Shown here piece by piece: positions 5,354-24,735 of a stretch of DNA of 64,000 nt (position 1 is its first letter; each line of letters opens with the position of its first letter). Both the position numbers and the translations under genes were made by a program. The DNA lies in assembly GCF_023028105.1 (NCBI RefSeq), contig NZ_CP095491.1, forward strand, positions 1,798,001 to 1,862,000, read 5' to 3'. The stretch comes from Halosolutus gelatinilyticus. Its GTDB lineage: Archaea; Halobacteriota; Halobacteria; Halobacteriales; Natrialbaceae. Below the pieces are notes generated by a model, which searched no databases, had not been told where the DNA came from, and saw only the letters and a program-made list of their open reading frames with translations.

Positions 5354-5426
5354 CGCCCGAGGCGGGATTTGAACCCGCGTCACGACCGTGACAGGGTCGT
5401 ATGATGGGCCACTACACCACCCGGGC
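5354..5426 (-). tRNA. tRNA-Asp (GTC), copy 1
   Basis: Complete 73-nt cloverleaf on the minus strand. The acceptor stem GCCCGGG pairs with CTCGGGC with one G-U pair, the discriminator is G, the anticodon loop reads CTGTCAC (anticodon GTC) and the T-loop is TTCAAAT. CCA is not encoded. A TATA-like CTTAATATT lies about 30 nt upstream (5453-5461 on the plus strand). It is identical in sequence to the copy at 5857-5929. Confidence 0.95.
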
Positions 5427-5856
5427 TCGCAACTCACCGTTTCCGGGTCGGAATATTAAGGGTTGTGTTCTCACCTCGCCGTGGTATTGCGTCTCTCATC
5501 GATTTTTCGGGCGGGACGCCGTGCGATCGTCCGCTCCGACCGAGCGCGGACCCCGATCGAAAGCGACGCGCTTCTCTCCGCGATCCGAACGGGACGATCT
5601 CGGCCCGGCGGCGATCGCGGAAACGGGTACTCGTGAACGGGAGTCGAAAATTCGATCGGTCGATTGCAACACGGTACACTGGTTGCTCGTGCGAGACGAG
5701 TTTGAGACGACGTCCGAGGCGGAATTTAAACCCGGCAGAGACGTTCCGGGCTGCGGGCTCACTTCGTTCGCAGAACCTCGGTGTAGTTCAAATCCGCGTG
5801 TCTACGTTTTCGAGGAACAGCGACTCGCTTCGCTCGTCGATCGGTTCCTCGAAAAG
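5427..5856. other. Spacer between tandem tRNA-Asp genes
   Basis: A 430-nt spacer with no convincing coding gene. It contains the promoter of tRNA copy 1 and a degenerate tRNA-Asp-like fragment at 5711-5733, followed by a T-loop-like TTCAAATCC near 5787 in the opposite orientation. The short open frames here have no recognisable protein features and are dominated by Arg and Ser, as expected of non-coding GC-rich DNA. Confidence 0.6.
5711..5733 (-). repeat. Degenerate tRNA-Asp 3'-end fragment
   Basis: This stretch resembles the acceptor/T-arm segment of the flanking tRNA-Asp genes with several substitutions, and like the fragment at 5220 it is followed by an inverted T-loop-like sequence. It appears to be an older relic of the same duplication or integration process. 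Confidence 0.5.
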
Positions 5857-5929
5857 CGCCCGAGGCGGGATTTGAACCCGCGTCACGACCGTGACAGGGT
5901 CGTATGATGGGCCACTACACCACCCGGGC
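5857..5929 (-). tRNA. tRNA-Asp (GTC), copy 2
   Basis: Second complete 73-nt tRNA-Asp with anticodon GTC, identical over its whole length to the copy at 5354-5426. Its upstream flank (about 5931-5965) also matches that of copy 1 with substitutions, including a TATA-like CTTAATACT, so gene and promoter were duplicated together. It is divergent from the RNA polymerase operon. Confidence 0.95.
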
Positions 5930-8038: not shown

Positions 8039-9868
8039 ATGAGCAGCCAACAACGAGAAGCCAAGGTATACGTCAACGGGTCGCTGGTGGGGACGCACCC
8101 GAACCCGAACGAACTGGCGGAACAGATCCGAGAAGCGCGACGCATCGGCGACGTCAGCGAGATGGTCAACGTCTCGGTGAAACAGCGCACTCGCGAAGTG
8201 ATCATCAACGCCGACGCGGGCCGCGCTCGCCGGCCGCTGCTGGTCGTCGAGGACGGCAAACCGCGCATCGCCGAACAGGAGATCGAGGCCCTCCGCGACG
8301 GCGACCTCGACTTCGACGACCTGGTCGACCACGGCTACATCGAGTTCATCGACGCCGAGGAGGAAGAGGACATCTACGTCGCCGTCGACGAGGACGACCT
8401 CACCGACGAGCACACGCACCTCGAGATCGACCCGTCACTGATCTTCTCGATCGGCGCGGGGATGATCCCGTACCCCGAGCACAACGCGTCGCCCCGGATT
8501 ACGATGGGAGCGGGGATGATCAAGCAGTCGCTCGGGTTGCCGAGCGCGAACTACCGCATCCGGCCGGACACGCGCCAGCACCTGCTGCACTACCCGCAGC
8601 TTTCGATGGTGAAAACCCAGACGACGGACCAGATCGGATACGACGACCGACCTGCCGCCCAGAACTTCGTCGTCGCCGTGATGAGCTACGAGGGGTTCAA
8701 CATCGAGGACGCCCTCGTCATGAACCGGGCCTCCGTCGAGCGCGCACTGGCCCGATCGCACTTCTTCCGCACCTACGAGGGCGAGGAGCGCCGCTACCCC
8801 GGCGGCCAGGAGGACCGCTTCGAGATCCCCTCCCAGGACGTCCGCGGGGCTCGCGGCGAGGAGGCCTACGCGCACCTCGACGAGGACGGTCTCGTCAACC
8901 CCGAGACGAAGGTCGACGAGAACTCGGTGCTGCTGGGCAAGACGAGTCCGCCGCGGTTCCTGGAGGAACCGGACGACATGGGCGGCCTCTCGCCCCAGAA
9001 GCGCCGCGAAACGTCCGTGACGATGCGATCCGGCGAGTCGGGCGTCGTCGACACGGTCACGCTGATGGAAGGCGAGGACGGCTCCAAGCTCTCGAAGGTG
9101 TCGGTGCGCGACGAGCGGATCCCGGAACTCGGGGACAAGTTCGCGTCGCGACACGGCCAGAAGGGGGTCGTCGGCCACCTCGCGCCCCAAGAGGACATGC
9201 CCTTCACCGAGGAGGGCGTCGTGCCCGACCTCGTGGTCAACCCGCACGCGCTGCCGTCGCGGATGACCGTCGGGCACATCCTCGAGATGATCGGCGGCAA
9301 ACTCGGCGCGATGGAGGGCCGTCGCGTCGACGGCACGCCGTTCCTCGGCGAGGAGGAGGAGGCCCTCCGGAACGGCCTCGAGGAGGCCGGCTTCAACTCC
9401 GCCGGCAAGGAGACCATGTACTCCGGCGTCACGGGCGAGAAGATCGAGGCCGAGATCTTCATGGGCGTGATCTTCTACCAGAAGCTCTACCACATGGTCT
9501 CGAACAAGCTGCACGCCCGATCGCGCGGGCCGGTGCAGGTGCTCACCCGCCAGCCCACGGAGGGTCGCGCCCGCGAGGGCGGGCTCCGTATCGGGGAGAT
9601 GGAGCGCGACGTGTTCATCGGCCACGGGGCGGCCATGACGCTGAAGGAACGACTCCTCGACGAGTCGGACCGCGAGTTCATCCACGTCTGCGGTAACTGC
9701 GGGATGAGCGCGGTCGAGAACGTCGAACAACGACGGGTCTACTGTCCGAACTGCGACGAGGAGACCGACATCCACGAGATCGAGATGAGCTACGCGTTCA
9801 AGCTTCTGCTCGACGAGATGAAGGCGCTCGGCATCGCGCCGCGACTCGAACTGGAGGACGCCGTCTAA
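8039..9868 (+). CDS. rpoB1: DNA-directed RNA polymerase subunit B'
   Basis: C-terminal half of the split beta-type subunit, 609 residues, forming part of the catalytic centre. It contains GYNIEDA-type [13 protein letters not shown], the conserved [13 protein letters not shown] loop (about 365-377), [17 protein letters not shown] and a C-terminal zinc ribbon with paired cysteines (CGNCG and CPNCD, about 551-575). It is translationally close to the B'' gene and is followed four bases later by rpoA'. Confidence 0.97.
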
Positions 9869-9872
9869 AACC

Positions 9873-12803
9873 ATGCAAAACGGGACACCAAAAGACATCG
9901 GAGCGATCAACTTCGGGCTCATGGAGCCCGAGGAGTACCGGGAGATGAGCGCGACGAAGATCATCACCGCCGACACCTACGACGACGACGGCTTCCCGAT
10001 CGACATGGGGCTGATGGACCCCCGGCTGGGCGTCATCGACCCCGGGCTGGAGTGCAAGACCTGCGGGAAGCACTCGGGGTCGTGTAACGGCCACTTCGGC
10101 CACATCGAACTCGCCGCGCCGGTCATTCACGTCGGCTTTACGAAACTTATCCGGCGACTCCTGCGAGGGACCTGCCGCGAGTGTTCTAGGCTCCTGCTGA
10201 CGGAAGACGAGCGCGAGGAGTTCCGCGACCAGATCACGGAGTCTCGCAAGCTCGGCCGCGACCTGAACGACGTGACTAAGGCCGCGATCCGGCAGGCCAG
10301 AAAGAAGGACCGTTGTCCGTTCTGTGGCGAGATCCAGTACGACATCGATCACGAGAAGCCGACCACCTACTACGAGGTCCAGCAGGTCCTCACCAGTGAG
10401 TACTCCCAGCGCATCGCTGGCGCGATGCAGGGCGACGAGGAGGCTGGCGTCGAGCGGACGACGCCGGACGAACTCGCCGAGGAAACCGGAATCGAACTCA
10501 CGCGGATCAACGAGATCCTCTCGGGTTCGTTCCGTCCGCGCGAGAACCAGCGCAAGGCGATCGAGAAGGCGTTAGATATCGACCTCACCGAGGAGGACAC
10601 GAACAAGCTGATGCCCTCGGACATCCGGGACTGGTTCGAGGACATCCCGGATGAGGACATCGAGGTCCTGGGAATCGATCCCGAACGCTCCCGACCGGAG
10701 TGGATGATCCTCACCGTCCTCCCCGTGCCCCCGGTCACCGCGCGGCCGTCGATCACGCTGGACAACGGCCAGCGCTCCGAGGACGATCTCACGCACAAGC
10801 TGGTCGACATCATCCGCATCAACCAGCGGTTCATGGAGAACCGCGAAGCCGGCGCTCCGCAGCTGATCATCGAGGACCTGTGGGAGCTGTTGCAGTACCA
10901 CGTGACGACGTTCATGGACAACGAGATCTCGGGGACGCCGCCGGCCCGCCACCGATCGGGCCGGCCGCTCAAGACCCTCTCCCAGCGGCTGAAGGGCAAG
11001 GAGGGACGCTTCCGCGGCTCGCTGTCCGGGAAGCGCGTCAACTTCTCCGCGCGAACCGTCATCTCGCCGGACCCGACCCTCTCGCTCAACGAAGTCGGCG
11101 TCCCGGATCGCGTCGCAAAGGAGATGACCCAGACGATGAACGTCACCGAACGCAACGTCGAGGACGCGCGGCGGTTCGTCGCGAACGGCCCCGAGGGCCA
11201 TCCGGGCGCGAACTACGTGCGCCGGCCCGACGGTCGCCGGCTGAAGGTGACCGAGAAGAACTGCGAGGCGCTCGCGGAGAAGGTCGACGCCGGCTGGGAG
11301 GTCAACCGCCACCTGATCGACGGGGACATCGTCATCTTCAACCGGCAGCCGTCGCTGCACCGGATGTCTATCATGGCCCACGAGGTCGTGGTCATGCCGT
11401 ACAAGACCTTCCGGCTGAACACCGTCGTCTGTCCGCCGTACAACGCCGACTTCGACGGCGACGAGATGAACATGCACGCCCTCCAGAACGAGGAGGCCCG
11501 CGCCGAGGCGCGCGTCCTGATGCGCGTCCAGGAGCAGATCCTCTCCCCGCGGTTCGGCGAGAACATCATCGGGGCGATTCAGGACCACATCTCCGGAACC
11601 TACCTGCTGACCCACGACAACCCGCGGTTCAACGAGACGCAGGCGCTCGACCTGCTGCGGGCGACCCGGATCGACGAACTGCCCGAACCCAGCGGCATCG
11701 ACGACGAGGGCGAGCCGTTCTGGACCGGCCGCGACGTCTTCTCCGAACTGCTGCCCGACGACATGAACCTCGAGTTCACGGGCACCGTCGGCGACGACGT
11801 CGTGATTGAGGACGGCCAACTCGTCGAGGGAACCATCGCCGAGGACGAGGTCGGCGAGTTCGGCGGCGAGATCGTCGACACGATCACCAAGGTGTACGGC
11901 AACACCCGCGCTCGGATCTTCATCAACGAGGTCTCGACGCTCGCGATGCGGGCGATCATGCACTTCGGGTTCTCGATCGGCATCGACGACGAGACCATCC
12001 CCGAGGAAGCGGAAGCCCGCATCCAGGAGACGATCGAGGACGCCAACGATCGCGTCGAGGAGCTGATCGAGGCCTACGAGCGCGGCGAACTCGAGAGCCT
12101 CCCGGGCCGGACGATCGACGAGACCCTCGAGATGAAGATCATGCAGACGCTCTCGCGCGCCCGAGACAACGCGGGTAACATCGCGGAGGAGCACTTCACC
12201 GAGGACAACCCGGCGGTCGTCATGGCCTCCTCCGGTGCGCGCGGATCGATGCTCAACCTGACCCAGATGGCCGGCTGCGTCGGCCAGCAAGCGGTTCGGG
12301 GCGAGCGGATCAACCGCGGCTACGAGGACCGAACCCTCAGTCACTACAAGCCCAACGACCTCTCCGCGGAGGCCCACGGCTTCGTCGAGAACTCCTACAC
12401 CGGCGGGCTCACCCCGCGGGAGTTCTTCTTCCACGCGATGGGCGGCCGCGAGGGGCTGGTCGACACTGCAGTCCGGACCTCGAAGTCCGGCTACCTGCAG
12501 CGCCGGCTCATCAACGCGCTCTCCGAACTCGAAACCCAGTACGACGGCACCGTCCGGGACACCTCGGACACGATCGTTCAGTTCGAGTTCGGCGAGGACG
12601 GCACCTCGCCGGTGAAGGTCTCCTCCGGCGATGACAACGAGATCGACGTCGCACAGATCGCCGACCAGGTGCTCGACGCGGAGTTCGACTCCGAGGAGGA
12701 GCGAGCCGAGTTCCTCGGGACGAAACGCGAACCGACGAACCTCTCCGAGAAGGCGGACGACAGTCTCTTCTACGGTGAAACGGAGGTGACCTCCGATGAC
12801 TGA
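9873..12803 (+). CDS. rpoA1: DNA-directed RNA polymerase subunit A'
   Basis: N-terminal two thirds of the beta'-type largest subunit, 976 residues. The zinc-binding CKTCGK...CNGHFGHIE motif lies near residue 60, with further Cys pairs at CRECS and CPFCG. The universal active-site motif NADFDGDEM occupies residues 524-532, with metal-binding aspartates 526, 528 and 530. The bridge-helix region is marked by [12 protein letters not shown]. The gene overlaps rpoA'' by eight bases, the normal archaeal A'/A'' arrangement. No intein is present. Confidence 0.98.
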
Positions 12804-16648: not shown

Positions 16649-17302
16649 TCACAGCCACTCGACGCGGTACTCGCAGCGGTGGCCGCCGTCCGATCGGCAC
16701 TGATCGCCGACCTCCTCGACTTCGACGGGGTTGTTGGCAAACTTTCTCGCAACGCCCCTGATGAGTCCTTTGTCGAATTCACACGGGTACGGGTTCTCAC
16801 AGACCATGATCCCCTCGTTCGGTCCCTCTTCTTGGAACTCATAAAACCCGATCTCGCTGCCGCGGTGGTTCGCGTGATACGCCGTATCGATCGACCGTAA
16901 CGCGTTATCGACGTCGGTGATGTCCGGGGGGAATTCGACGTGCTCGGGGATGTTCTGCCCCATATTCCGCATTCTGACGCCGCCGTACTCGTCGCGCATG
17001 TCGTACAGCATAGCCAGCGGAATTGTGAGCGGGTACCATTCGTCGGGATCGATGTCCTCGAGCCCGTATTCAGCGAGTTTATTGGAGATCTGATTCCCCA
17101 CGAACGACGAGACGGATTCGCCCGCAGCGATATACGATAGGGGGCTCCGCCCGATTACTTCCGCGTCCTCGAGTGACCCGTCGAATCCGATTCGACCGTC
17201 TACTACCGGCGATTCGTCGGCGGATTGGGTGTTTCCGTTGGAAAGACCGAGGAGTCGCTTGAACCAGGACGTGGTGGCGAAAACCGTGCTGAGTGGAGCC
17301 AT
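16649..17302 (-). CDS. V4R-like sensory/heme-NO-binding-type domain protein
   Basis: 217-residue protein. The C-terminal 80 residues resemble a 4-vinyl-reductase (V4R) domain: a CENPYPC stretch, FDKGLIRGVARKF, then the cysteine pair C202-x7-C210 in the form QCRSDGGHRC, which matches the usual V4R end. The N-terminal part is helical, with no recognised motif. V4R domains bind small ligands or metals and often serve as sensors. The convergent aldehyde dehydrogenase may be unrelated. Weaker alternative: a stand-alone heme-NO-binding domain. Confidence 0.6.
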   Translation of the reverse strand: MAPLSTVFATTSWFKRLLGLSNGNTQSADESPVVDGRIGFDGSLEDAEVIGRSPLSYIAAGESVSSFVGNQISNKLAEYGLEDIDPDEWYPLTIPLAMLYDMRDEYGGVRMRNMGQNIPEHVEFPPDITDVDNALRSIDTAYHANHRGSEIGFYEFQEEGPNEGIMVCENPYPCEFDKGLIRGVARKFANNPVEVEEVGDQCRSDGGHRCEYRVEWL

Positions 17303-18692: not shown

Positions 18693-20711
18693 TCACAATT
18701 CGCTTATTTTAATTTCGTCGCTCCATCGTAGCTCACCATCCAATACCACTGGCATTTTTTCTCTATCAAGGAATTGGACAAGTTGTGGCTTCGAAATGTT
18801 GTTCTTGATAACCTCCCCTGGCACTAAATGATAATGCTCACAGAATTGAAGATCTGGGCGATAGATACCTCCTTTCGATTTTGTAATTCCTTGATGGAGT
18901 TTTAGTTTTATTGTGAAACCAGTACTATCGCGTTTAATCGAACAAACTTTAGAAACGCTATCTTCGGACTGTGATATAATTGATGTACCATCTCCAACTA
19001 ACTGGTATAAATGTCCGAATTTGGACATATTCCGTACAGCTTCTACAGCAACATATAATGGATGGCCATTGTCCAAAAATCGTGATACTGTGTTTCCAAT
19101 ATGAATTGCTTCCATGTTAACAATATCATCTGAGGTAACAATCCCTCCTATACTTCCTGCTTCTATTAAATAAATACCTTGTGTGAAAGATCGACAAGCG
19201 TTAAGAAAGAATGCCTTTGTTCCGACCATATCAAGCGAAGATGCACATAGGTTACCATCTATACAGCGAAATCCATCTGCATCAATGTGACCAATGTAAT
19301 GAACGAAGTCACTTTCTTTTTTTAGAACTTCTCTTAGTGACTTCCTGTCCAATGATTTATACACATTTACATTTAACAAAGATTCTTGCTCTCGATAGGA
19401 ACCATAAACATTGATAAGTTCTTCAGTCATCTTCTGGTCATTACAAATGACATTAATATCAAGAGGATCTATTCTTGGTGATCGTTCGATTCTATTATAT
19501 AATCCTGATAGAGGAACTGTACTTTTTGTTTTTGAACTTTCTCGACACTTCCAATATTGATTGATAGCTGGTGACGAAGAAATAGGCTGACTCTTTGTAA
19601 TATCGTGCTCAATTTGAGGGTGGTTCAGACAACTATTTTGATCAATTTTAGTAGATACAATCGCGAGATCATACGCTAAAAACGGCAGAAATTCAACGCT
19701 TGGTTCATCTGGGCTAATCTGTACTTTAAGCTGCCAATCATGAAGATATGGTTCGATCGTTGAATATGGGATCTCTAGATATGTCTTAATCCGGTCAGCA
19801 AGGGACTGTTTATATGTGGAAGAAATATCAAAACCAAGAATTGGTTTGGTCGTTTTACGCTCATATAGTGGACCCGGCCATCCACCTTCTGTGCGAACTA
19901 TACAATCTAAGAAAAACACTTGTTTGAGTGTACGTTCTACTGTTGATTCAAATCTTCCTTCATAACTGAATGAGTATTTATATCCCTTTTCGGTAAGTAG
20001 CTTCGGTTCTGAGCCTGGCACTACTTCGGCTCCGAGATAGTAGGCAAGAGGTGCGACTGTGAACACCTGATCAAGAGTTGGTTCTATTTCAATTCTCACT
20101 CCATTGTCTGGTAAACTAAACTTATCTGGAACGGTTAATTCATTGCCAAGTTTGAGGGTTGGTGGATGACCACGTAAAGTAGGAAAAGATTGCTCCGGAG
20201 TTGTTGTTTTTAAAGCAGATCCGAACGTTGATACAGCCCGCATCACATCTCTTGGCGATGAAGTCGTTGTGATTGTATCTGCAGGACGCGTGTGAAACGA
20301 CCGAGCGCCTATTGTTATCCTTGTTGGGTCATCAAAACATAAACACTTCTGGTTTCTGTCCGATATTATTTTCACAGATGATTCAAATAATATGTAAACC
20401 TTTATCTGTCTCGACAAATCGATAGTATATTCCCCATATGACAAGTATGTACTATTATTAACTATCACTTCATCTAACGCCTTCTCATCGTGGTTTAATA
20501 CATATATTGCCTTACTATCCGGTACTGTTATTGAACTGGTAGTAATCTCCACAGCTGAGTCAACAGAATATCCAACCTGATCTTTTTCTACTTGAACAGG
20601 TGTTGAGTGATTAGAAATTTGTAACTGATATCTACATCGTTCAATCGGATCGATAATTTCGATCCCATTACCTTCAGATTTGAATTTCGGACTTACTGAA
20701 TTACCACTCAT
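18693..20711 (-). CDS. CHAT-domain (caspase-like) protease, paralogue 1
   Basis: 672-residue protein of markedly low GC for this genome. The C-terminal third is a CHAT domain (about 405-560). The catalytic histidine H475 lies in HYIGHID and the nucleophile C506 in LNACRS, 31 residues apart, so the dyad is intact. GSIGGIVTSDDIV follows, with the conserved GNTVSRFL and GHPLYVAVEA helices. The N-terminal 400 residues contain IDPIERCRYQL (18-28), IGARSFHTRPA, FPTLRGHPPTLKLG and APLAYYLGAE, all shared with the paralogue at 21879; I know no function for this part. A conserved tail of about 90 residues follows the CHAT domain. CHAT proteases act in prokaryotic conflict and cell-death pathways; the role here is inferred. 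Confidence 0.82.
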   Translation of the reverse strand: MSGNSVSPKFKSEGNGIEIIDPIERCRYQLQISNHSTPVQVEKDQVGYSVDSAVEITTSSITVPDSKAIYVLNHDEKALDEVIVNNSTYLSYGEYTIDLSRQIKVYILFESSVKIISDRNQKCLCFDDPTRITIGARSFHTRPADTITTTSSPRDVMRAVSTFGSALKTTTPEQSFPTLRGHPPTLKLGNELTVPDKFSLPDNGVRIEIEPTLDQVFTVAPLAYYLGAEVVPGSEPKLLTEKGYKYSFSYEGRFESTVERTLKQVFFLDCIVRTEGGWPGPLYERKTTKPILGFDISSTYKQSLADRIKTYLEIPYSTIEPYLHDWQLKVQISPDEPSVEFLPFLAYDLAIVSTKIDQNSCLNHPQIEHDITKSQPISSSPAINQYWKCRESSKTKSTVPLSGLYNRIERSPRIDPLDINVICNDQKMTEELINVYGSYREQESLLNVNVYKSLDRKSLREVLKKESDFVHYIGHIDADGFRCIDGNLCASSLDMVGTKAFFLNACRSFTQGIYLIEAGSIGGIVTSDDIVNMEAIHIGNTVSRFLDNGHPLYVAVEAVRNMSKFGHLYQLVGDGTSIISQSEDSVSKVCSIKRDSTGFTIKLKLHQGITKSKGGIYRPDLQFCEHYHLVPGEVIKNNISKPQLVQFLDREKMPVVLDGELRWSDEIKISEL

Positions 20712-21032
20712 GAAATTATGTTAACTACTTTCGGATTTTTATAGGATATCCATGCGTCCGTTTTTCGCTACTAATTCCTATTCAGAGTGATAATCACTCT
20801 ATCGATTTCATCTCTTCTTCTCCTAATACTATTTAATATACCTACGGGACATTAGAATAGTTCCCTCACTACTTTGCTGGAAGGTTATCAACACGATCGT
20901 TCATAACCACTTTCAATATTCTAAACAAGATCCATTCTTATTTCAGCTGCGTTTAACAAGGGTCTTGAGAACTCACGTGCTCTAATCATATTTAATAAGG
21001 CCTACCCAACAGTATCGATATAATCCGTACCA
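20712..21032. promoter_or_regulatory. AT-rich divergent promoter region
   Basis: 321 nt between the divergent CHAT gene 1 and HalX gene, with no ORF of substance. Several TATA-like AT-rich stretches are present, for example TATTTAATATACC at about 20828-20840 and CATATTTAATAAGG at about 20987-21000. The latter lies about 33-46 nt before the HalX start. Base composition is far from that of the chromosome. Confidence 0.4.
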
Positions 21033-21596
21033 TTGGAATCTACTGTAAGTCTATTCATCGTGTATCCAGGACTATCTCTGGATAACATGGAGACCACTGA
21101 TTGCTGCTTAGCCTTCAATATTTCCTACGCAGACTTCAGTAGAACGATTATTGAGCAAATCAATAATGCGTACGATTTGCTGATCCTTGATTGGACTCTT
21201 GATGCACCTAGTGCAAAAGGGATAGTTGATACAATGCGGCAGCGCGCCCCGAATACACAAATTTTAGCTTTAACCGATAACACCCCAACAGTAGACCCGA
21301 TCGACCGGGGCGCGGATGAGTTCCTTGTTGAGCCGGTCTCTGATAGAACGTTATCTGATACAATTGAATGGCTAGCTTTTCAAAAAGAATACGAACAGTT
21401 GATGGACGAATTTTTCCGATTGGCAACCGAGCGAGCCTTGCTACAGACGGAATTGGAGTCGGATATTAATGTGACAAACCAGTATTTGACTGTTGTTCAA
21501 GAGATGATGAAATGTCGTGAGCGGATAGCTACGATTCAATCAGCGCTTCCAGACGATGAGTTTGATCGGGTTCTGCGACAACTGCTTGATGATTGA
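21033..21596 (+). CDS. HalX-domain protein with degenerate receiver
   Basis: 187 residues, TTG start (an upstream stop at 21021 leaves little choice; a GTG near 21060 is the alternative). The N-terminal 115 residues resemble a CheY receiver: D53 in LLILDWTL and T81 are kept. The acidic pair at the N-terminus is replaced by FIVYPG, and the conserved Lys by E100 in FLVEPVS, so normal Mg-dependent phosphorylation is unlikely. Residues 120-187 form a helical HalX domain ending LPDDEFDRVLRQLLDD. HalX proteins are haloarchaeal signal-output modules without a DNA-binding domain. Its position between two CHAT genes suggests a regulatory partner (inference). Confidence 0.75.
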   Translation: MESTVSLFIVYPGLSLDNMETTDCCLAFNISYADFSRTIIEQINNAYDLLILDWTLDAPSAKGIVDTMRQRAPNTQILALTDNTPTVDPIDRGADEFLVEPVSDRTLSDTIEWLAFQKEYEQLMDEFFRLATERALLQTELESDINVTNQYLTVVQEMMKCRERIATIQSALPDDEFDRVLRQLLDD

Positions 21597-21763
21597 ACGA
21601 TATACTTATGTTCTGTTACTGGAATTGATTAATGATAATACTAGAGTCTGTTCTACTATTCCGCAAATTTCTCCCAATAAAACTATAGAATAATACTATG
21701 ATTACTACATCAGATATATTAAAATAAATTCATTAGGGGCATCCTCCAAGTAGAAGATGTACT

Positions 21764-21892
21764 ATGACAGACCTAACCGGATACCTGAAGAACCACCCAC
21801 GAATGATCGGTGTGCTGTTTACAATTGTGATGATACTATCGAAAACTGGGGCTGTCGCAGCAAAAAATAGTTCTGGAGTCAGCGGTCCATAA
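21764..21892 (+). CDS. 42-residue single-pass membrane peptide (DUF7503-like)
   Basis: Starts MTDLTGYLKNHPRMIG, then a single hydrophobic helix (GVLFTIVMILSKTGAVAA), and ends in a short polar tail NSSGVSGP. From memory it resembles a family of tiny haloarchaeal proteins (DUF7503 type) often found near HalX and DUF7504 genes. An AT-rich TATA-like ATATATTAAAATAAAT lies at about 21714-21729, 35-50 nt upstream. The last 14 bases overlap, antisense, the 3' end of CHAT gene 2. Signal peptide is an alternative to membrane anchor, since the AVAA-K could be a cleavage site. Confidence 0.6.
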   Translation: MTDLTGYLKNHPRMIGVLFTIVMILSKTGAVAAKNSSGVSGP

Positions 21893-23966
21893 GTTTTTTG
21901 AGTCCATCTCTTAGGATGTCTCTACTCCAATCGACTTCACCATTCCATATTATGGGCGTGTCATTTAGATCCAAAAATTCCTCGAACTCTTCTCTAGTGG
22001 AATTTATTTTGTTAGTCTCGCCAGGATGTAAATAATGGCAATCAGCTGACTCTAAGTGCGGGGTAAATAAGCTTCCTTTTCTATTCCCTGATGACAGATA
22101 TGTTTTCATTCTCACATTCACACAATCACTATCGTGGTCTACAGAACATACATTAGGTACTCCCATCTTTGGCTGCGCTATTGTTGTAAGCCCATCTCCA
22201 ACAATATGATATTGTTCTGCAATGATATGGTCTTCTCGAGCAATATCCAGTGCAGCATAGAGTGGGAAACCTTGGTTCAGTAGTCGTGCAATTGTGTTTC
22301 CTACACTGATTGCACCATCATTAACGACATCTCCGAAAGTAACGATCCCTCCGCTACTACCTGCTTCAATTAAAGAAATCCCTTGTGAATGAGATTGACA
22401 AGCATTAAGTAAAAATGCTTTGACGCCTACATTTTCAAGTGATGATGCGTCAAGTTTTCCGTCTGAACATTGGAATCCATTCTCATCTATATGTCCAATA
22501 TAATGACAAAAATCACCCTCTTGTGACAAAATTTCCTGTAATTCGTCCTTTGATGTATTATAGTGTACTATGACCTCAAATAGGAGTTCAGCATGGTTCC
22601 CATAAACTTTATTCACGCGTTCTGCTTCTTCGCTCATAGTAGGATCATTACATATAAGATTAATTGTGATTGGTCCTTCTCTTGGAGTTCTTCCAATACT
22701 ATTATAGAATGATGAAATTGGAGTAGTACTATTAATATTAGAAAAGGTTGTACCATTCCAGGATTGCTGAATCGTTGGAATTGACAGTTTATTAGATATG
22801 TCTGAAACAATATCTACGTCTTGAGGGCCTCTCTCTTGGATCGAATTGCTCCTTGTGAATTGCTCGATGGCTTGTGTGTGGCTTTGTGACGATGTTGACG
22901 AATTCGCATCGCTTAATTCATCCATTACTTTCACTGAAGCAAGGCGATCAGCAATATATGGAAGAAACTCAATAATTTTTGGGACAGGTTTTACATTCAC
23001 TTTTAGATGCCATTTTGTGAGGTAGGCCTCTATAGCCTCCGATGGAACTTCCAAATATTTTTCTATTTGCTCATGAATTGGGAGTTTATATACTTCTTCA
23101 ATGTCAAATTTGAGAACAGGCTCAATTAATTCTCGTTCATGTAAAGATAGTGGTATTATACCTTCTGTTCGAACAATGCAATCTAAGAAGAAAATTTGCT
23201 TTAAAATTTGATCGACTGTTGGCTCAAAACGATCATCAAGTGAATAGGAATATCCAGATTGAGTGGTAAGACGAGGTGTTGAACTTGGTACTAGATCTGC
23301 TCCGAGATAGTATGCAAGAGGTGTTATAACAAATATATGCCGTAATGTCGGAGGGATACCAATTTGTATACCTGTTTTACTTTCATTAATATTCTCTGGA
23401 ATGGATAGATTCTCACCAAGTTTAATTGCTGGCGGATGCCCTCGAAGGGTTGGGAAGGCTCGGTCAGCCGTCTTCGTCTTTAAGGCAGATCCAAATGCTG
23501 ATATTGCCTTCATCACGTCGTTTGGATCTGCTGGCGTAGTAATCGTTGCTGCTGGGCGTGTATGATAAGATCGTGCGCCTATAATGACATCCGGAAAGCC
23601 ACCGAAATAAACATAGGTGCGGTCAGAATCCGAATACACATTTATTTCGTCATTAACATGCACATATAATTTTAGAGCTGACGAGAGATCAATAGTGTAT
23701 ATTCCTGATGGAAAAGACTGTTGTTCATTTGGCCGAACCTCCGCTATCATCGATCTATCTCTTCCATAGATGTAGATAGTATCTTTTGTCGGCAACGTAA
23801 GCATATCCGTCGTAATCTCGACGGCTGCATCGATCGGGTACTGAATCGTTTCGCAATCGACTGGTGTGGGATCCACCTCGGTATGCGTCGTTAGCCGGTA
23901 TCGATGCCGCTCGATCGGGTCGATAATTTCGAGTCCGTCTTCGATCGGTTCGAAAGTTGGTTTCAT
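21879..23966 (-). CDS. CHAT-domain (caspase-like) protease, paralogue 2
   Basis: 695 residues, colinear with the CHAT protein at 18693. It has the same N-terminal landmarks (LEIIDPIERHRYRL, IGARSYHTRPAATI, FPTLRGHPPAIKLG, TPLAYYLGADLVP) and a CHAT domain with H492 in HYIGHID and C523 in LNACQS, again 31 residues apart. A Ser/Gln-rich linker of about 55 residues before the CHAT domain is longer than in paralogue 1. The conserved C-terminal tail is also present. The first 50 codons use GC-rich haloarchaeal codons while the rest is AT-rich, suggesting a recombination joint or partial amelioration. The DUF7504-like gene ends 70 nt upstream on the same strand, so the two may form an operon. Confidence 0.82.
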   Translation of the reverse strand: MKPTFEPIEDGLEIIDPIERHRYRLTTHTEVDPTPVDCETIQYPIDAAVEITTDMLTLPTKDTIYIYGRDRSMIAEVRPNEQQSFPSGIYTIDLSSALKLYVHVNDEINVYSDSDRTYVYFGGFPDVIIGARSYHTRPAATITTPADPNDVMKAISAFGSALKTKTADRAFPTLRGHPPAIKLGENLSIPENINESKTGIQIGIPPTLRHIFVITPLAYYLGADLVPSSTPRLTTQSGYSYSLDDRFEPTVDQILKQIFFLDCIVRTEGIIPLSLHERELIEPVLKFDIEEVYKLPIHEQIEKYLEVPSEAIEAYLTKWHLKVNVKPVPKIIEFLPYIADRLASVKVMDELSDANSSTSSQSHTQAIEQFTRSNSIQERGPQDVDIVSDISNKLSIPTIQQSWNGTTFSNINSTTPISSFYNSIGRTPREGPITINLICNDPTMSEEAERVNKVYGNHAELLFEVIVHYNTSKDELQEILSQEGDFCHYIGHIDENGFQCSDGKLDASSLENVGVKAFLLNACQSHSQGISLIEAGSSGGIVTFGDVVNDGAISVGNTIARLLNQGFPLYAALDIAREDHIIAEQYHIVGDGLTTIAQPKMGVPNVCSVDHDSDCVNVRMKTYLSSGNRKGSLFTPHLESADCHYLHPGETNKINSTREEFEEFLDLNDTPIIWNGEVDWSRDILRDGLKKLMDR

Positions 23967-24036
23967 TTCAAATGATTTACAAATGTGCTGCGATCACGAA
24001 GCCACGGGTGGCTCTCGGCTGCTGGCGCTCCTACCG

Positions 24037-24735
24037 TTATGAATCTGGTGGACTGATCCATCCTGAACTGTGGTCCGTACGCGGGAGCGTCCATCGCTCC
24101 TGAACGATGCCGTTTTGCTCGCGGAGTTCGACGAGCACGTCGAACAACGGTTTCAGGACCGGCACCACAGTGGCGTCTCGCTCGATCGGGAGCCGGTAGT
24201 GGATCATCCCGTCGGCGGCTTTCACGCGTCCGTTAGTCAGGTGGATGAATTTGAACACTTGTTCGGTGTCGTAGTCTTCGAGCAGTGGGAGTAACGAATC
24301 GACGCCAACCCGGAGTTCGCTCGGCTCGAACTCGCTCTCGCTTTCGAACGCCTCGATCGCACTCGAGATCGCGATCCCGAGGTCGCCGAGCGTTTCGGCG
24401 GTGGGCTGGTCGTCGATCGACGGCGTGGCGGACCCGTCGGTAGTCGGCGCCTCTGCAACGGTACAGCGCGTCTGGCTCTCGTAGCGGACGACTCGAATCG
24501 TCTCCGCCGGAGATAATTCGTGCAACAGGGCATCGCCGTTAGCGGTCGAGACGAATACGCGGCGACGAAGCTGATCGGTTGCGTGTCCCAGCAAACGCCG
24601 GGAGAGCGCCCACTGCTGGTCGGGATGGACGGAGCCGAGGACGAGGACGCTCGCACCGTGCTGTTTCAGCCGCGATAACGCGTCGGTGAACGACGCGTCG
24701 GTCGATCCCTGTTTGCGATCCTTTGCCGAGAACAT
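24037..24735 (-). CDS. DUF7504-like signalling protein (degenerate P-loop)
   Basis: 232 residues; the ATG at 24735 is preferred to the TTG directly before it. The N-terminal GASVLVLGSVHPDQQWALS aligns with a Walker-A position but lacks GKT, as in KaiC/RecA-like sensory families that no longer bind ATP. RRRVFVSTANGDALL, an acidic middle, and a C-terminal half with DSLLPLLEDYDTEQVFKF and DGMIHYRLP follow. This matches my memory of haloarchaeal DUF7504. A TATA-like GTTTAATATTC lies about 30 nt upstream. GC content is higher than in the CHAT genes. Gene order suggests a sensor or adaptor for CHAT protease 2 (inference). Confidence 0.55.
   Translation of the reverse strand: MFSAKDRKQGSTDASFTDALSRLKQHGASVLVLGSVHPDQQWALSRRLLGHATDQLRRRVFVSTANGDALLHELSPAETIRVVRYESQTRCTVAEAPTTDGSATPSIDDQPTAETLGDLGIAISSAIEAFESESEFEPSELRVGVDSLLPLLEDYDTEQVFKFIHLTNGRVKAADGMIHYRLPIERDATVVPVLKPLFDVLVELREQNGIVQERWTLPRTDHSSGWISPPDS

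Follow-up and report, generated by a model that had tools for sequence, protein, structure and literature searches.

Among the described systems closest to the locus reported here, the CHAT protease Csx29 cuts a sigma-factor inhibitor and thereby changes transcription (PMC10028731), which sets a precedent for CHAT proteases in regulated signalling. In haloarchaea, HalX, HalOD1 and inactivated KaiC are listed signalling domains (PMC5847659), in a census that makes no mention of CHAT (word search) or of DUF7503. Haloferax volcanii exhibits high caspase-like activity to which no gene is assigned; such activity is also reported from methanogens, Pyrococcus and Sulfolobus, and its authors called for identification of the protein behind it (PMC3615174). 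In this study, a 64,000-nucleotide stretch of the Halosolutus gelatinilyticus genome (contig NZ_CP095491.1, positions 1,798,001 to 1,862,000), hereafter the window, was investigated for a group of five genes between rps7 and fusA. They encode two CHAT-type proteins (CHAT1 and CHAT2), a DUF7503 micro-protein, a protein with a receiver and a HalX domain according to Pfam (REC-HalX), and a DUF7504 protein.

With about even confidence, the group is considered a conserved haloarchaeal signalling module based on a cytoplasmic caspase-fold (CHAT) protease, with DUF7503 as its dedicated membrane-side partner. It resembles Craspase Csx29/Csx30 in the CHAT/caspase fold and in having a protease with a dedicated partner gene beside a regulator. 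It differs from Craspase in being without TPR, Cas7-11 or CRISPR genes, in the N-terminal half of the protease, which consists of a beta-sandwich and an alpha/beta region, and in its partner, a 42-residue membrane-type peptide, whereas Csx30 is a sigma-factor inhibitor. Neither a Cas7-11 gene nor a Csx30-type substrate gene was found between rps7 and fusA. The catalytic domain is also similar to that of SAVED-CHAT (activated filament, PDB ID: 8tl0), but no SAVED domain is among the fold matches to the N-terminal half of CHAT1, and no nucleotide cyclase is among the recurrent neighbours of haloarchaeal CHAT genes. The regulators beside CHAT belong to the REC-HalX, HalOD1 and inactivated KaiC groups of the haloarchaeal census. 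As the initial annotation had presumed, no functional account of the CHAT/DUF7503/HalX/DUF7504 combination was found in the open-licence literature (subscription journals lay mostly outside the search).

Pairing of CHAT with DUF7503

Three samples were used: 61 related genomes, of which 54 contain the CHAT family and 50 contain DUF7503; 247 genomes drawn across the phylum; and 80 named haloarchaeal loci, which are the best among the matches listed, so that the figures are proportions of that sample. The initial annotation had proposed that the genes form a system, and co-occurrence had been set beforehand as the check on which this proposal would stand or fall. Of the 74 DUF7503 genes in the related genomes, 69 are located immediately downstream of a CHAT gene and converge on it, with a median gap of 46 nt (range -7 to 282). 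The same convergent arrangement within approximately 300 nt was seen in 32/32 cases in further, previously unsampled genomes. Together, the two counts exclude chance as the origin of the pair. Across the phylum sample, CHAT is present in all 35 genomes having DUF7503, and DUF7503 alone was found in none. Of the 80 loci, 69 have DUF7503 adjacent to CHAT, 41 have DUF7504 directly upstream of CHAT, 24 have REC-HalX directly behind DUF7503, and 19 have all four families together. Thus, the CHAT-DUF7503 pairing recurs, HalX and DUF7504 keep fixed positions, and the term system is supported.

The DUF7503 protein of the window has a cytoplasmic-type N-terminal part ending in Pro-Arg, a 20-residue hydrophobic segment ending in Ala-Ala, and a short tail; together with its Pfam match, this agrees with the membrane-type peptide initially predicted from the sequence. 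Throughout the family a Pro and a Phe are invariant, and Arg or Lys followed by the 20-residue hydrophobic stretch is found in 67/71. The alignment columns contain a conserved Gln and Gly near the end of the segment and then the two alanines. The tail of 7-10 residues is variable except for a terminal Gly-Pro (60/71), which is kept whether or not the gene overlaps the 3' end of CHAT. Among relatives, DUF7503 is under purifying selection, with a pN/pS of 0.11-0.33.

Predicted fold and catalytic residues of CHAT

The structure of CHAT1 was predicted with a pLDDT of 88.5 and a pTM of 0.88. The model suggested a beta-sandwich (residues 1-145), an alpha/beta domain (148-318), a caspase-like region (approximately 319-600) ending in the CHAT catalytic domain, and a C-terminal beta domain. 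Sequence searches yielded no relatives of CHAT among solved structures, and these became visible by fold search only. The gingipains RgpB and Kgp fitted the region of approximately 319-600 with a Z score of 18.9 (2.8 Å, 240 residues). SAVED-CHAT was the top Foldseek match to the catalytic domain (E 2.3e-6) and gave a Z score of 16.5 (2.4 Å over 169 residues), separase gave 15.5, and Csx29 gave 11-13 with approximately 190 residues aligned. The gingipains, with the highest Z score, and separase thus have a caspase-like arrangement in common with CHAT1. As differences, gingipains are secreted enzymes, and separase is a protein of eukaryotes.

The His-Cys dyads are intact in both CHAT proteins of the window, as initially annotated. 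The residues H488, H492 and C523 of CHAT1 are invariant in 70/70 aligned sequences, and the catalytic residues sit in the motifs HYIGH and LN(A/G/S)CxS. Judged from the model, the C-terminal domain of CHAT1 is of the caspase-haemoglobinase fold, clan CD type, and a predicted peptidase, so that the CHAT label of the initial annotation is upheld by both the fold and the dyad. The Pfam profile PF12770, on the other hand, did not match the CHAT proteins of the window, and 5 of 33 relatives matched it weakly (best E 9e-4).

In the N-terminal half, residues 1-135 weakly resemble galactose-mutarotase-like and YidC-periplasmic beta-sandwiches (Z approximately 8, best 8.3), and these matches to the model are too weak for naming a function. 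The region 148-318 contains an invariant RGHP motif as well as the invariant L and Y of LAYYLGA, and it gave no clear fold match. CHAT2 is 44% identical to CHAT1, and the tandem duplicate is common to other Natrialbaceae at the site between rps7 and DUF5781.

Regulators and chromosomal address

The order from rps7 to fusA is CHAT2 (-), REC-HalX (+), DUF7503 (+), CHAT1 (-), DUF7504 (-), DUF5781 (-) and fusA, and ORFs and Pfam matches placed all five module genes at the coordinates first annotated (Table 1). The DUF7503 and CHAT1 genes are tail-to-tail with a 14-nt overlap. DUF7504 is on the same strand as CHAT1 and upstream of it with a 70-nt gap, and REC-HalX immediately precedes DUF7503 on the plus strand. 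No Rfam match to an RNA element was obtained in the locus.

Table 1. Features of the module and its flanks in the window
Feature	Position	Strand	Evidence
CHAT2, paralogue of CHAT1	18693-20711	-	ORF; H475/C506
REC-HalX protein	21033-21596	+	TTG start; Pfam response regulator 4.9e-5, HalX 3.1e-4
DUF7503 micro-protein, 42 aa	21764-21892	+	Pfam PF24335, E 4.8e-19
CHAT1, 695 aa	21879-23966	-	ORF; H492/C523; predicted model
DUF7504, KaiC/RecA-like without P-loop	24037-24738	-	Pfam PF24336, E 2.6e-51
Flank: rps12/rps7	17.5-18.67 kb		
Flank: DUF5781 and fusA	24.9-28.2 kb		

For the REC-HalX protein, both Pfam domain scores are singly below the curated cut-offs, and in the search of the whole genome HalX, with its neighbours, exceeds its cut-off. 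The whole genome has four HalX matches, one of them at this locus, and because HalX is this rare its position is not attributed to chance. The alignment of the receiver revealed that the phosphoacceptor-type Asp53 is kept and that the acidic pair is replaced in Natrialbaceae and intact in Haloferax and Halobellus; the residue set for phosphotransfer is thus incomplete in Natrialbaceae. The degenerate P-loop initially ascribed to DUF7504 was borne out: the protein matches its Pfam family, and the Walker A motif GxxxxGK[ST] is absent from the DUF7504 of the window and its aligned relatives. Because it has no P-loop, DUF7504 is at most an inactivated KaiC-like member.

The genome of the window contains a second DUF7504-CHAT-DUF7503 set, in which DUF7504 is fused to two HalOD1 domains. 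At locus L043 the DUF7504 protein with two HalOD1 domains (9173-10507, -), which also matches the DdfA family of NCBIfam (E 2.7e-20), lies upstream of CHAT, and a DUF7344 gene (10510-10920, +) is divergent from it.

Natrialbaceae genera share the site between rps7 and DUF5781, whereas the Haloferax copy of the block is flanked by aminotransferase/AsnC genes on one side and TrmB/guaB genes on the other. The insertion into a ribosomal operon proposed initially therefore applies to the Natrialbaceae lineage only. The ribosomal position is an old, lineage-specific address and not part of the system. Similarly, the AT-rich block first described extends from CHAT2 through CHAT1 (38-46% GC) but not to DUF7504, which with 61.5% GC is typical of the surroundings. 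A recent horizontal import, suggested by the low GC, was rejected: orthologous CHAT genes at the same site in other genomes have 41-63% GC, and the gene order is shared across genera. The control genome of Haloferax volcanii matches DUF7503 and DUF7504, and the CHAT block was seen in other Haloferax species.

Elsewhere in the window, a V4R-domain protein (16649-17302, -; Pfam E 1.5e-7) is encoded just upstream of rps12, and two tRNA-Asp (gtc) genes (5354-5426 and 5856-5929, -) are located approximately 430 bases apart.

Proposed regulated proteolysis and competing explanations

In the favoured signalling module, CHAT would be a regulated cytoplasmic protease whose N-terminal domains, together with HalX and DUF7504, set its making or its activity, and DUF7503 would bring the output to the membrane. 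DUF7503 would most likely be a dedicated substrate, cut by CHAT on the cytoplasmic side before or at insertion; it may alternatively be a membrane tether for CHAT, a role ranked below that of substrate. The tail-to-tail layout would allow transcription of one gene antisense to the other, possibly as an added control.

The initial annotation had suggested cell death or conflict. In one such explanation, DUF7503 would be a membrane-damaging effector, harmless until CHAT, triggered via DUF7504 or HalX, frees it in a gasdermin- or Craspase-like manner. The fold matches to SAVED-CHAT and Csx29, the small hydrophobic partner and the low GC in this lineage are in favour of such an effector. However, the CHAT family is found in 46 of 50 good related genomes and is near-universal, multi-copy, syntenic and vertically inherited in Halobacteria, and the GC range of same-site orthologues argues against recent import. 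PADLOC-DB 2.0.0, searched with E up to 1, gave no match to four module proteins, and a known defence system was accordingly rejected. A virus-borne origin was likewise rejected, as a scan of viral contigs confirmed 0/47 pattern matches. The patchy, mobile distribution expected of anti-phage defence was thus not seen, and since the family is near-universal, duplicated and vertical, with one site per lineage and no relatives in viral contigs, the cell-death or conflict label is weakly supported and this explanation is considered unlikely. A signalling module based on regulated proteolysis fits better, and its vertical maintenance in almost all Halobacteria suggests housekeeping or stress signalling as its role instead of abortive defence.

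Peptide signalling was also considered, with a signal peptidase cutting DUF7503 after an A-x-A motif, export and sensing of the 7-10 residue Gly-Pro-ended peptide, and CHAT either degrading the leftover signal peptide or processing the precursor. Small residues at -3/-1 are present in 71/71, although it was the motif itself that served to place the -1 position, and the tail is nearly fixed in length and variable save for its terminal Gly-Pro. This A-x-A-like end is compatible with a cleavable signal peptide, no more. The hydrophobic segment, on the other hand, exceeds ordinary signal peptides in length and in sequence conservation (Q, G, F and T positions), and no conserved exporter or receptor gene was found near the loci, making this an improbable function. 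The tail-to-tail genes with their short gap, overlapping in the window, and the size and hydrophobicity of DUF7503 would also suit a toxin-antitoxin-like pair, in which a small membrane toxin is checked by CHAT or by an antisense 3' transcript end. Yet the module is strongly retained by vertical descent, tandem extra DUF7503 peptides stand beside one CHAT in genome G144, and type I toxin-antitoxin pairs are not known to involve a 700-residue protease; such a pair is judged quite improbable. Finally, vertical inheritance can hold gene order within a lineage, so that CHAT and DUF7503 might be mere neighbours, the latter serving another process. From one haloarchaeal family to another, the outer neighbours change but the pairing and convergence are retained, and the presence and absence of the two genes agree, which leaves this explanation very improbable indeed.

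Several observations weigh against the signalling module as favoured here. CHAT and DUF7503 occur without DUF7504 or HalX nearby at 28 of the 80 loci, so neither regulator is obligate. A fourth CHAT clade (33% identical), encoded in the same genome beside a glyA-like gene (locus L045, 6690-8762, -), is without DUF7503; matches of approximately 34% identity akin to it were found again in most relatives. Stand-alone CHAT relatives near dnaG were found in a family that belongs to the same phylum but not to the Halobacteria (L128, 6040-8100, -; L129, 5808-7454, -; L130, 6062-7900, +). There, DUF7503 is absent, and the catalytic His and Cys are both lost in the L128 protein and kept in the L129 and L130 proteins. 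With clades lacking the peptide and one copy lacking both residues, the CHAT scaffold can act without peptide and even without catalysis. What we take to be the separase-type P1-Arg-binding position is Asn549 in CHAT1, a difference from separase, and cleavage after the Pro-Arg of DUF7503 is therefore not a safe guess. Moreover, CHAT activity and the binding and cleavage of DUF7503 are predictions.

The caspase-like activity of Haloferax volcanii is, like the module, haloarchaeal, it is without a gene, and Haloferax species carry the module; but other archaea reportedly show the activity as well, and a different protein may be responsible for it. Because of this wider occurrence, a link between the two is put forward as a hypothesis and not as a claim. 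An ancient haloarchaeal caspase-fold pathway, with the micro-protein as dedicated substrate or messenger, that explains at least part of the orphan activity is a speculative and rather unlikely prospect. Nevertheless, almost every haloarchaeon examined has a CHAT family with an invariant dyad, which escapes an ordinary Pfam search when the proteins of the window are the query. Its near-obligate 42-residue partner is a ready candidate substrate, and the CHAT gene provides a named candidate for the caspase-like activity of Haloferax (PMC3615174).

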